DNA from: Actinomycetes bacterium
GTDB lineage: Bacteria > Actinomycetota > Actinomycetes > JAHEKZ01
Assembly: GCA_024644345.1 (NCBI GenBank)
Contig: JAHELE010000010.1
Span: 1-43,683 of the forward strand
DNA length: 43,683 nt
Direction of reading: 5' to 3'
Part shown: piece by piece, positions 14,660 through 25,561 of the stretch
Layout: each line of letters begins with the position of its first letter
How positions within the stretch are numbered: position 1 is the first letter of the stretch
Notes under the pieces: generated by a model
The model's input: the letters and a program-made list of their open reading frames with translations, nothing else
Told to the model about the DNA's origin: nothing
The model's database searches: none
Made by a program: the position numbers and the translations under genes

Positions 14660-15949
14660 CTACGGCAGCGACTGGTCGGACGTGGCGTCAGAGGCCGTGG
14701 TGCCCGGCGCGACCGGATGAGCCGATCGAAGGTCGATGACCGCAGGCGGCAAGGTGCGAAGAAGGGCCCAGGAGCTGTACGCCACGGGCAGGATCAGGGC
14801 GATCGCCATTGTGGACGTGGTCGGCAGCACGGTGGCGACTGCTCCAGCGGCCAGGGCGCCAAGAGCCTGGATCCCCATCAGGCCCGGTTGGATGATCGAC
14901 ACGAAGGGCGCCCGCAGGTCTGGCGGAACAATCATCATCGAGCCGGTCATCGTCGGTACGTCGGCCGCGATGGTCACGCCGTAGGCGGTGATGGCGAGCA
15001 GAGCAAGAACAACGACAAGCCATCCGGAGGCCGTCCCGGACAGGGCAAAGAGCAGGGCCGCGGGGCTGGCCGCGAGGATGGTCACCGTGCACGAGATGCG
15101 CATCAGACGAGTGGGTGAGCCCTCGCGCGGAACCACAGTTCCGCTGAACGCCCCGACCAGCGGAGCTGTCGCGATCAGCGCCGCCATGACCAACGGGTTG
15201 ACGGCTTCACTCCGTAGGAAGACCGGCAGCAGCCCGGTGATGGCCGCGTCGGCAAGGGCGAGCAACAGGAAGAAGACCAGCATCTGACGGAGGAGTCCGC
15301 GTCGAGCCATCATCGAGAAGGCGTTCTTGGTGCGGGTGATCGGAGGCTCAGGGGGAGGTGGTCGGCGTCCGGCGTCGAGGCTGAACAGCAGGACTGCCGA
15401 GACGCCGAACGTTGCGGCGTTCATGATCAGCGCGGCTTCGGGTCCGATGAGGAGGAGCAGAGCACCGCCGACGGCGAGCCCAAGGGCCTGAGCGGTCTGG
15501 AAGGTGACGTTGCTGAGCGCGTAGGCGTCGGCCATGCGGTCTTCGCCGGCGGCCTCGGGGATCACGGCGGTGCGGGCCGCCTCGAACGGCGGGGTTGCGA
15601 GCCCAGCGACGAAGGCCAGTACGAGCAGAGACCAGGTGGGCAGCGGCAGCGCGATGAGGGCGAACAGCGCCATGCGCACGATGTCGGAGCCGATCATCAT
15701 GCGCCGCAACGAGTAGCGCTGCGCGATCGGGGTGATGACCGGACTGAGCAGGTAGGGGAGGTAGGTGACGGCGAGCGTTGCCGCGGTGAGGAACGCCGAC
15801 CCGCTGCGGTCGAAGACCAGGACCGCGAGCGCGAAGCGGGCAGCCCAGTCGCCGACCTCGCTGAGCACCTGCGAGCCCCAGACACGACGCATGTCGTGAA
15901 TGCGGAGCACGCTGAAGGACGCGACGAATCTCTCGCGCGTCGTGGTCAA
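14660..15949 (-). CDS. MFS transporter, possible leader-regulated exporter
   Basis: A 429-residue major facilitator protein with about 12 membrane segments. The N-terminus (MRRVWGSQVLSEVGDWAARF) is typical of actinobacterial MFS exporters of the macrolide-efflux-like type. The loop between helices 2 and 3 reads AQRYSLRRMMIGSD. The start is taken as TTG at 15949, preceded by GGGGGG at a short distance; an internal ATG about 19 codons in is an alternative. Upstream on the same strand lie a UUCG-loop hairpin (16062-16090) and a 15-codon ORF (16106-16153), which together look like an attenuator. The substrate is unknown. Confidence 0.85.
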   Translation of the reverse strand: MTTTRERFVASFSVLRIHDMRRVWGSQVLSEVGDWAARFALAVLVFDRSGSAFLTAATLAVTYLPYLLSPVITPIAQRYSLRRMMIGSDIVRMALFALIALPLPTWSLLVLAFVAGLATPPFEAARTAVIPEAAGEDRMADAYALSNVTFQTAQALGLAVGGALLLLIGPEAALIMNAATFGVSAVLLFSLDAGRRPPPPEPPITRTKNAFSMMARRGLLRQMLVFFLLLALADAAITGLLPVFLRSEAVNPLVMAALIATAPLVGAFSGTVVPREGSPTRLMRISCTVTILAASPAALLFALSGTASGWLVVVLALLAITAYGVTIAADVPTMTGSMMIVPPDLRAPFVSIIQPGLMGIQALGALAAGAVATVLPTTSTMAIALILPVAYSSWALLRTLPPAVIDLRSAHPVAPGTTASDATSDQSLP

Positions 15950-16061
15950 GGTCCCCCCAGGTTGGATGGTCAGGTGGCGAATTTCACCACATGGGCGCGA
16001 GGATCTGCGGCAGGTTGTGCGGGGTGCCGCTTATCGGGTGAATGGACGTCGGGAACGACAA

Positions 16062-16090
16062 GGACGGGGGACCCGAAGGTCACCCCGTCC
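16062..16090 (-). terminator. UUCG-loop hairpin, terminator or attenuator
   Basis: Read on the minus strand, the left arm GGACGGGG-U-GACC pairs with GGUC-CCCCGUCC around a UUCG tetraloop closed by C-G. This makes 12 base pairs with a single bulged base. It lies 15 nt after the stop of the 15-codon ORF and 112 nt before the MFS start. A weak U-rich run (TTGTCGTT) follows. The hairpin is very stable and is either a terminator for the mini-ORF or a regulatory terminator for the MFS gene. Confidence 0.7.
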
Positions 16091-16105
16091 TGGGGAACGA
16101 ATAGA

Positions 16106-16153
16106 TCAGGCCCACTTCTTGCCTGGGACAGCCTCGAAGGTGCACTGGATCAT
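16106..16153 (-). CDS. 15-residue candidate leader peptide
   Basis: An ATG with a strong ribosome binding site (GGAGGG, 4 nt spacing) opens a 15-codon ORF: MIQCTFEAVPGKKWA, stop TGA at 16106-16108. A possible -10 (TAATCT, plus positions 16193-16198) lies about 40 nt upstream. A stable UUCG hairpin follows 15 nt after the stop, and the MFS gene lies beyond it. Within the ORF, CUGUCC (plus 16126-16131) can pair with GGACGG of the hairpin's left arm, so an antiterminator is conceivable. I do not recognise the peptide. The good ribosome binding site and placement are the only support for translation. Confidence 0.5.
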   Translation of the reverse strand: MIQCTFEAVPGKKWA

Positions 16154-16241
16154 GGTTCCCTCCTTCTGTCTCCGCGTTGTGGTGCGAGCGTGAGATTAGT
16201 GGGGCAAAGAGGTCGCTGTCCCCGTTTGGCCTGATTCCCGG

Positions 16242-16261
16242 CTATCCACACCTTATCCACA
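16242..16261 (+). promoter_or_regulatory. Tandem DnaA-box-like sites
   Basis: TTATCCACA (16253-16261) is a perfect match to the DnaA-box consensus, and CTATCCACA (16242-16250), 2 nt upstream in the same orientation, matches 8 of 9. The pair lies in the 169-bp gap between the end of ung and the 15-codon ORF. It could titrate DnaA or regulate a neighbour; no oriC genes (dnaA, dnaN) are in this window. Confidence 0.45.
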
Positions 16262-16322: not shown

Positions 16323-17000
16323 CTATGGCAGTCGCCAGTCGACGGGCTCGCCCGCCTGCGCGACCAGTGCCTCGTTGGCCCGGCTGAACGGCCGCGACCC
16401 GAAGAAGCCGCGAGACGCCGACAGAGGGCTCGGGTGCACGCTCGCGATCTGCGGAACACCCTCGAGGAGCGGCGCTGCGGACTGCGCGTCCCGCCCCCAG
16501 AGCACAGCCACCAGCGGTCCACCGCGGGACGCCAGGGCGCGGATCGCTGCCTCGGTCACGCCTTCCCAGCCCTTGCCCCGGTGGGAGGCCGGGGCCCCGG
16601 GCTGCACCGTGAGCACGCGGTTGAGCAGCATCACCCCGCGGTCAGCCCACGGCGAGAGGTCCCCGGTGCTGGGGGTCGGGAAACCGAGGTCGTCGCTGTA
16701 CTCCTGGAAGATGTTCGCCAGGCTCTTGGGCACCGGTCGAACGTGAGGTTCGACCGAGAATGACAGCCCTACGGCATGACCTGGTGTGGGGTACGGGTCC
16801 TGCCCGACGATCAGCACGCGGACCGCCTTGAGCGGCTGTGAGAACGCACGTAGGACGCGGCCTCCGGCAGGCAGGTAGCCGCGTCCCGCTGCAAGCTCGG
16901 CGCGGAGGAAGTTTCCGATCTGGGCAATCGTCGCGGTCTCGGGCTCCAAGGCTGGCAGCCACGACGAATCCACCAGCTCGGCCAACGGTCGTGGTGCCAC
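16323..17000 (-). CDS. ung: Uracil-DNA glycosylase, family 1
   Basis: A 225-residue family 1 uracil-DNA glycosylase that removes uracil from DNA as the first step of base excision repair. The water-activating motif is GQDPYP (Asp68) and the minor-groove loop is [21 protein letters not shown]-like near the C-terminus, with the active-site His. The GTG at 17000 was chosen because it gives the usual family start ([10 protein letters not shown]) and avoids overlap with the divergent GNAT gene; the frame is open to 17054. Confidence 0.95.
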
Positions 17001-17034
17001 GGGGGTCGAGCGTAGAGGCACCCGCCCGGTTACG

Positions 17035-17499
17035 GTGACCGGCGTGACCTTCACGTTGGAGACGGTGCGCTACGACTCGCCCGAGGCTCATGTTCTGATC
17101 GAGGAGCTGCAGGAGGAGTACGTCATCCGATACGGCGGACGCGATGAGACGCCGGTCGATCCCGACGACTTCGCCCCGCCGCGCGGAACCTTTCTACTCG
17201 CCCACCGCGATGGCGAGGTGGTGGGGTGCGCCGGAATGCGCCGGCGTTCGCGGACCGAGGTCGAGGTGAAGCGGATGTTCATCCGCCAGCCCTTTCGAGG
17301 TCGCGGCTACTCGCGGGGGCTTCTTGCGCTGATCGAGGACGAGGCACGCACCCTGGGATTCACGCGGGTGCTGATGGAGACAGGCCTGGCGCAGCCGGAG
17401 GCGATGAGCCTGTACGAGTCCAGCGGCTATGAGCGCATCCCCGGCTTCGGTCACTACCGCAACGAGCCGCAGAACCGCTGCTACGCCAAGGAGCTCTGA
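17035..17499 (+). CDS. GNAT family N-acetyltransferase
   Basis: A 154-residue single-domain GNAT. The acetyl-CoA pyrophosphate-binding motif is [14 protein letters not shown], followed by the [20 protein letters not shown] block typical of small-molecule or amino-acid N-acetyltransferases in actinobacteria. The start is GTG at 17035 or GTG at 17044; neither has a clear ribosome binding site, so a leaderless transcript is possible. It is divergent from ung with a very short gap. The substrate is unknown. Confidence 0.88.
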
Positions 17500-23819: not shown

Positions 23820-23899
23820 GTTGCGGAGCGTATCGACCCGGCCTCGTGTTACACCCGGTCACCCGTTCGGCCCACCGTCGCCTGACTAACCCGGTCGGA

Positions 23900-24031: not shown

Positions 24032-25561
24032 ATGGACAACCCGCAGCAGTTGGCGCGTACCGGGGCCTTGGCCGCATGGGTCAATGCTGGTCTCGGTCTT
24101 GTCCTCACACTGCTTATCCAGGTGGCCGATGACTCGGTTCCGGTCGCGCTGATCCCGGCCCTGATCTGGTGCTCCCTAGGCTTGGCCTTCGCCGCGTTCC
24201 TGTCGGTGCTGTCGCGCCGGATGAGTAACAGCGACCTCGAGGTAGGCAATCGGCGGTTGGCCCACGCGCTGATCACCACCGAGATGGTCTGGGTGGCTGG
24301 GTTGGTGGCTCTGACTGGTGGCCTGCGCAGTCCGGTCTGGGTGTTGTTCGTGACAGTCGCGGTCTTCGTTGCCGACGTGGTGGAACGCAAGGGTCTGGCC
24401 ACCTTCACGCTGCTGGCCCTGGCCATGCTGTTCGCGGCCGCTCTTGCCTCCGGCACCCTGAACCTGCAGGTACTGCCATGGCTGATCGCCGCGGCTGCGA
24501 TCATCCCGTTGACCGTGGGCTTCGACGAGATGCTCAAGTCGGGGATCCACGAAAGTCACAACACCCGCCTGCAGCGGCGTGTGGAAGAGCTGTCGGTATC
24601 CCTGGGGCAGGCCGCCGATGGTGATCTTGCCGTCGGAATTCCCACTCACGACGTCGATGACGCTGCTTTGCGCTCTCTGGCCATCAACATCGACGAGACG
24701 CTGGTCTCGTTGCGCATGCTGGTCGACCGAGTGCGTGACGGTGGTGAGCGGATCTCCGAGAGCGCGCAGGAGCTGCAGGCTGCGGCAGAGACCCAGGCAT
24801 CGGCGTCCACCAAGCAGACCGGTGCCGTGACCGAGTCGACCGTGACACTCAAGCAGCTGGCCGACATGGCCGAGACGATCGCCAACTCCAGTGCCGACGT
24901 GGTGGAGCAGGCCGCTTTGACCTTCCGGTTCGCCGAAGAGGGCCAATCGGCGGTGACGAACGCCGTCGACGCCATTGACGCGATCGCCCACCGCTCGCGA
25001 CTGGTCGCGGAACGTACGGCTGCACTGGCCGACAAGTCTGGCGAGATCGGCCGGATTCTCGATGTCATCGACGAGCTGGCCAACCAGACCAACCTGCTTG
25101 CGCTCAACGCTGCGATCGAAGCAGCCCGAGCTGGCGAGCACGGCCGCGGGTTCGCCGTCGTTGCCGCTGAGGTGCGCAAGCTCGCTGAGCGGGCACAGGC
25201 GTCAACCAAGCAGATCCAGACGATCGTGTCGGAGATCCAGGCCGAGATGAGAGCCACCACAGCGGCGACAGCCGAAGGAGCGGAGGAGGTGCTCAACGGA
25301 GTGGCTCTGGCACGTGACGTTGTCACTGTTCTCGAGCGCATCTCAGAGGTGGCAGATGAGACCACCACGGCGGCACGTGAGATCTCGAACGCCAGCAAGC
25401 AGCAGAAGACCGCATCGGCCGAGGTGGCTTCAGCGATGAAGGACGTTGTGGGTGTCTCAGAGCAGACGGCCACCGGATCACGCGAGGCAGCGCACGCCGC
25501 GGCGTCCCTGACGTCGCTGGCCGCCGATCTGCGTGAGTCCATCTCCAGGTTCCGCATCTAG
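24032..25561 (+). CDS. Methyl-accepting chemotaxis protein
   Basis: A 509-residue chemoreceptor. The ATG at 24032 has AAAGGTGAG just upstream; the frame is open from 23564 without similarity. The first about 180 residues hold five or six membrane helices with no large extracellular ligand domain, so sensing is likely within the membrane. A HAMP-like stretch ([20 protein letters not shown]) follows. The signalling hairpin tip is fully conserved: [20 protein letters not shown] then [11 protein letters not shown]. It should bind CheA/CheW at the membrane. No other chemotaxis gene is in the window. The ligand is unknown. Confidence 0.94.

Follow-up and report, generated by a model that had tools for sequence, protein, structure and literature searches.

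We show, by comparison across related genomes, that a 15-codon open reading frame (ORF) ahead of an MFS transporter gene is conserved as coding sequence together with the hairpin that follows it, that its peptide resembles a family of actinobacterial micropeptides ending in G-x-K-[W/F], and that members of this family are associated with a particular membrane domain. The pattern of conservation indicates that the frame is a real, selected micropeptide gene and that it is probably translated. Our preferred explanation, to which we give somewhat better than an even chance, is that the ORF is a small independent gene that would encode a short, soluble member of the GxKW family, with the hairpin ending most of its transcripts and the peptide acting in trans. 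An earlier note on the same DNA had read the arrangement as an antibiotic- or translation-sensing leader, in which a stalled ribosome frees the sequence CUGUCC, disrupts a terminator and turns on the MFS exporter, a reading that we now consider improbable. The layout on which that proposal was built, with a GGAGGG site, the 15-codon ORF, a UUCG hairpin and the MFS gene in this order, is borne out: sequence inspection of the window (the whole stretch of 43,683 nucleotides that was analysed) found every element in its place.

16323..17054, minus strand: uracil-DNA glycosylase-like (ung-like) upstream neighbour, assigned by motif
16158..16163, minus strand: Shine-Dalgarno GGAGGG; GGGAAC at its 3' end pairs, in the predicted fold, with GUUCCC past the stop codon
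16106..16153, minus strand: micropeptide ORF MIQCTFEAVPGKKWA, 15 codons, C-terminal PGKKWA; ATG at 16153, TGA ending at 16106
16093..16098, minus strand: GUUCCC segment in the spacer between ORF and hairpin, predicted partner of the Shine-Dalgarno region
16061..16091, minus strand: strong hairpin with a UUCG cap and no U-tract, at which the micropeptide transcript probably ends; -25.2 kcal/mol alone
15974..15991, minus strand: TGTGGTGAAATTCGCCAC block immediately before the MFS start codon, a candidate operator or independent promoter for the MFS gene
14660..15949, minus strand: MFS transporter, 429 aa, TTG start at 15949; MFS_1 6e-22, MFS_3 8e-17

The hairpin is separated from the MFS start by 111 nt. 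A consensus scan of the region detected no promoter of the sigma70 type and no terminator with a U-tract, so the -10 put forward earlier stays a candidate and the hairpin, although its stem is as strong as claimed, does not fit the consensus for an intrinsic terminator. Actinobacterial terminators often lack the U-tract. The MFS protein has orthologues with 92% identity in G001 and 82% in the sister species G002, and the ung-like/MFS gene order is maintained in both; its match to TIGR00900 lies below the TIGR00900 cut-off, and no relative by sequence was found among solved structures. The three species with the MFS gene all show a recognisable form of the block before its start codon (TGTGGTGAAATTCGCCAC, at 15991-15974 in the window, TGTGGTGCAATACACGGC and TGTGGTCAAATACCCGGC), so the transporter may have start signals of its own. 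G003 is without the MFS/leader locus, and in G001 the assembly is interrupted by about 100 N precisely where leader and hairpin would lie (L038, G001:C46, directly before the MFS gene). The window also holds a DnaA box with the consensus sequence TTATCCACA, placed between the leader and ung (16253-16261, plus strand); its counterpart in G002 is TTGTCCACA at the matching place, each being the sole exact match in the scanned stretch.

Among 98 relatives searched, only G002 matched the leader strongly, with 87% identity (E 6e-17) along 68 nt that cover the Shine-Dalgarno site and the ORF, follow the orthologous ung-like gene and precede the orthologous MFS gene. This upholds the earlier claim that the ORF is real and is conserved with its hairpin ahead of the same MFS gene. 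The MFS-linked ORF is known from these two species, both represented by draft genomes (all g1 genomes are draft assemblies), and the G002 peptide reads MIESTFEAVPGKKWATAGKKWA. Across the shared codons, substitutions number 2, 0 and 5 at codon positions 1, 2 and 3 (P = 0.045 for at least five of seven at position 3), and five of the seven are synonymous; the difference in length is an in-frame 21-nt insertion in G002 that duplicates GKKWA. The synonymous substitutions and the duplication argue that the ORF is coding, and they bear on two null readings. One is that the ORF arose by chance and that the ung-MFS intergenic region is an ordinary one whose hairpin resembles a terminator; for this one could invoke how common short ORFs are and the lack of a consensus promoter. 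Coding conservation and the duplicated GKKWA of the sister species make this scarcely credible, as does the tail: this is the only stop-to-stop frame in the 43.7-kb window with a [GA]xKW end, it alone among 162 small ORFs preceded by a Shine-Dalgarno site has such a tail, and 60 Markov shuffles, with about 254 such ORFs each, yielded a G-x-K-[WF] tail only twice overall and never one with GKKW. The other is that the ORF is a decayed, functionless copy of a sensor-linked peptide module before an independently expressed MFS gene. Its truncation relative to relatives of 34 aa, the missing downstream coupling frame and the possible MFS promoter would all fit such a relic, which we nevertheless hold to be highly doubtful, given the excess of synonymous changes and the retention of start, stop, Shine-Dalgarno site and GKKWA between species that are 18% apart in the MFS protein.

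The hairpin of G002 (-28.7 kcal/mol) keeps the base of the stem and has an altered upper stem. In the predicted fold of both species the hairpin is intact, and the Shine-Dalgarno region pairs with the segment between the stop codon and the hairpin, through GGGAAC:GUUCCC in the window and through other bases, GAGGGA:UCCCUC, in G002. It is possible that this pairing, retained in the models with different bases, makes translation of the micropeptide self-limiting.

The stall-dependent switch of the earlier proposal requires CUGUCC to pair with GGACGG. Forcing this pairing gives -36.9 kcal/mol, as against -52.8 kcal/mol for the predicted fold, a cost of 15.9 kcal/mol, and its predicted probability in the nascent RNA is 3e-5. 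In our nascent-RNA test, the RNA was truncated before the 3' arm and the ribosome position was masked, with E. coli trpL as the positive control; an earlier equilibrium test with a masked ribosome was discarded, as E. coli trpL had failed to switch in it. The control formed the expected antiterminator at codons 10-11, the Trp codons (0.73-0.76 vs 0.06), whereas the same test revealed no antiterminator shift common to the window and G002 at any ribosome position, and masking the stop codon had opposite effects in the two species. On predicted energy and co-transcriptional folding, with trpL as control, we reject the CUGUCC:GGACGG switch. Comparison upstream of the orthologous MFS genes, the check proposed for the attenuator, comes out divided: the ORF and the hairpin are kept in G002, and no stall-dependent shift is shared by the two species. 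An attenuator can still draw on the proper order of Shine-Dalgarno site, short ORF, hairpin and transporter, conserved in two species, and on the documented control of multidrug transporters in this manner, as in bmrBCD (PMC4191407); its improbability follows from the folding results and from a peptide family that, as detailed below, is also found where there is no exporter and where no target gene follows at all. No Rfam covariance model matched over the leader. We also compared the hairpin DNA with the leaders of GGDEF-EAL genes; the resemblance is suggestive only, at best with 14 of 2000 shuffles as good, and for the hairpin of the G002 MFS leader it is not significant.

We define the GxKW family by a C-terminal G-x-K-[W/F] lying 0-4 residues from the stop, and the window ORF carries such a tail (PGKKWA-stop). 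A search of four genomes of the genus for AARAARTGGGC returned 23 sites, 13 of them in the tails of micro-ORFs. The members not linked to MFS genes are hydrophobic peptides of about 34 aa ending in GAGKKWA or GAGTKW, such as MKDIKAQVIVSVLGSAATVITLASVVGAGKKWAH, often in tandem pairs with a usual preceding partner (for example MKNVKARVVVSVLGSTASVFALVSVVGAGTKWQQ). Among GKKWA peptides, 364 of 426 pairwise differences fall at third codon positions, which indicates that the whole hydrophobic peptide is under purifying selection. Several pairs are free-standing: three tandem pairs lie at G000:C70 (L122 5096-6350), where each unit includes upstream sequence and, in those that were folded, a strong hairpin, and no sensor gene comes after them; others, at C110 and G002:C67, are both near tRNA genes by inspection. 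The peptides match no family in Pfam or NCBIfam and have insignificant matches only in PHROGs; Rfam has nothing at their loci, no relatives turned up in the plasmids and viral contigs searched, and we found no relevant literature on the peptide/GGDEF combination or on MASE9. GxKW micropeptides apparently constitute an undescribed actinobacterial family. A scan of 84,980 genomes for an RBS-ATG-GKKWA-stop pattern, which demanded the exact degenerate pattern, gave 21 matches, none from Actinomycetota by title, with about 18 estimated by chance.

An operator-like box of the sensor-linked peptides, TCACCCRTTYGGC, occurs 12 times in G000 and nine times in G002 (0 for the reversed control) and precedes GxKW peptide pairs, a chemotaxis receptor and an EAL-GAF protein. 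It is likely the signal of a motility/c-di-GMP regulon. A perfect copy lies in the window at 23859-23871 (plus strand), ahead of a chemotaxis receptor gene (24032-25561, MCPsignal). At the MFS leader the box is not convincing (poor score of 3.9, rank 133), and we do not claim it there.

Profiles of the peptides reached other families within the class as well as further classes of Actinomycetota; several of the matches lay inside long frames and were taken as false. Outside the genus, 13 loci are credible (G083, G061, G023, G157, G053, G590, G413, G473, G557, G357, G371, G391 and G596), and at every one of them the peptide is followed by a protein with the same N-terminal MASE9-like membrane domain, for which the match to MASE9 (Pfam PF20972) is weak in most proteins scanned, at best 33.4 bits and in several cases below the curated cut-off. 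The output is GGDEF-EAL or GGDEF in G083, G061, G023, G157, G473 and G557 (the sensor genes of the last two being cut off by the locus or contig end), likewise GGDEF-EAL or GGDEF by sequence in G053, and a histidine kinase (HisKA-HATPase) in G590, G413, G371 and G391. Since the same membrane domain is joined to either kind of output, the peptide tracks the sensor domain, not the output. In most loci a strong hairpin separates the peptide from the sensor gene. Class-wide, a tail ORF lies upstream of 12 of 50 sensor-like loci (one of the 12 looks spurious), compared with two on the reverse strand. An automated tail scan of non-seed MASE9-like loci across the phylum showed no enrichment (3 of 22 loci, and 5 of 22 for the reverse strand); the association therefore depends on peptide-first searches. 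Peptides noticed at such non-seed loci by looser inspection are leads.

Short soluble peptides also occur in this setting. MGHAVYTGVKW and MTAFAGHKW (G149) lie upstream of orthologous GGDEF-EAL genes, soluble second peptides ending in AGHKF lie upstream of GGDEF-EAL genes in G016 and G055, and LTRSEDTQYLPGYKWV is the short soluble peptide before the GGDEF-EAL gene of G157. The window peptide MIQCTFEAVPGKKWA has no hydrophobic stretch or helix. Peptides of this type are matched most closely by MICIQESAGSQVVDSDGTCCTFLAVATAGRKWT, the second of the peptides preceding a GGDEF-EAL gene in G023, which belongs to another family, with a single-comparison E of 3e-4 for CTFLAVATAGRKWT against STFEAVPGKKWATAGKKW; the G002 peptide and MICIQESAGSQVVDSDGTCCTFLAVATAGRKWT are aligned as STFEAVPGKKWATAGKKW / CTFLAV-----ATAGRKW. 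The window-type peptide and the second peptide of G023 have CTFxAV and the tail in common, and with the family the window-type peptide shares short stretches only. The window ORF has its own Shine-Dalgarno site and a following hairpin; the next gene is the MFS gene and not the MASE9-like gene that is usual, though not universal, in the family and that free-standing relatives also lack. The earlier picture of an isolated drug-sensing leader is at odds with these relationships, since the peptide belongs to a family normally found beside membrane signalling proteins and also free-standing.

Under the explanation that we prefer, most transcripts of the peptide gene would most likely stop at the hairpin, so that the peptide is expressed strongly and the gene downstream weakly, and the MFS gene would be expressed via read-through and/or its own putative promoter near 15980. 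Most likely the peptide would act in trans by way of its C-terminal motif, in general serving the MASE9-like domain as ligand or small partner; in the window the peptide-plus-hairpin arrangement of the sensor loci stands before an MFS gene instead. Another possibility is a leader acting in cis by a different route, in which the GxKW tail arrests or slows termination at the end of the ORF and thereby controls the downstream gene, a sensor gene in most genomes and the MFS gene in the window, perhaps by translational coupling or polarity, not by an antiterminator. What makes it possible is that the C-terminus alone is invariant, with N-terminal parts ranging from transmembrane helices to 9-mers, that the motif sits at the stop codon with the hairpin after it, and that several genomes open the GGDEF-EAL frame at a GTG overlapping the K-W codons. 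At L118, L119 and L127, this GTG overlaps the AAG-TGG codons of the second peptide and the hairpin falls within the first codons of the frame so opened, an overlap that possibly reflects translational coupling. However, the overlapping GTG frame of the window stops inside the hairpin, the distance from W to the stop varies from 0 to 4 residues, some pairs are free-standing and have no target gene, and purifying selection extends along the entire hydrophobic peptide. On these last two grounds we favour a trans-acting peptide and consider control in cis unlikely.

The signals of MASE-type membrane sensor domains are generally unknown. It is tempting to speculate, as a tentative and somewhat doubtful extension, that GxK[W/F] micropeptides form a widespread, unrecognised actinobacterial signalling module, whose C-terminal motif would be sensed by a MASE9-like domain driving c-di-GMP turnover or a histidine kinase, and that the window holds an orphan peptide paired with an MFS protein that might transport it or respond to it. 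A micropeptide that tracks one MASE9-like domain across classes, whatever the output, is a candidate ligand or partner and makes the question of the signal testable. Such peptide genes are readily overlooked, since genes of 9-36 codons are seldom annotated. More generally, a layout of leader ORF plus hairpin need not mean an attenuator; the ORF can be the peptide gene itself.

The locus can be set beside several known systems. In the BmrB leader of bmrCD in Bacillus subtilis, a short translated ORF and a hairpin precede the transporter gene (PMC4191407). As in this and other ribosome-mediated attenuators of resistance genes, the window has a hairpin and a transporter, and a short translatable ORF with a Shine-Dalgarno site stands upstream of the gene. 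Unlike BmrB/bmrCD, it is without a supported antiterminator, the folding test with its trpL positive control having detected no codon-specific, ribosome-favoured one, and its peptide family has free-standing copies and non-transporter neighbours. MASE9-domain sensor proteins (PF20972) provide a second comparison: the protein beside most GxKW peptides matches them weakly, and a gene of this kind is absent from the window locus. Type I toxin peptides (Ldr/Ibs/Fst-like) are about 30 aa long, form one helix, occur in tandem copies and have a strong hairpin after the ORF. The hydrophobic GxKW relatives alone resemble them (about 34 aa, tandem, with a hairpin) and are hydrophobic transmembrane peptides as those toxins are, whereas MIQCTFEAVPGKKWA is soluble and the relatives are tied to a sensor domain. 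Finally, in the toiL upstream ORF of E. coli topAI-yjhQ, RNA pairing hides the ribosome-binding site of the downstream gene (PMC12121999). The window likewise combines a tiny ORF with predicted RNA pairing over a ribosome-binding site; in contrast to toiL, the pairing predicted here covers the Shine-Dalgarno site of the small ORF itself and not that of the downstream gene.
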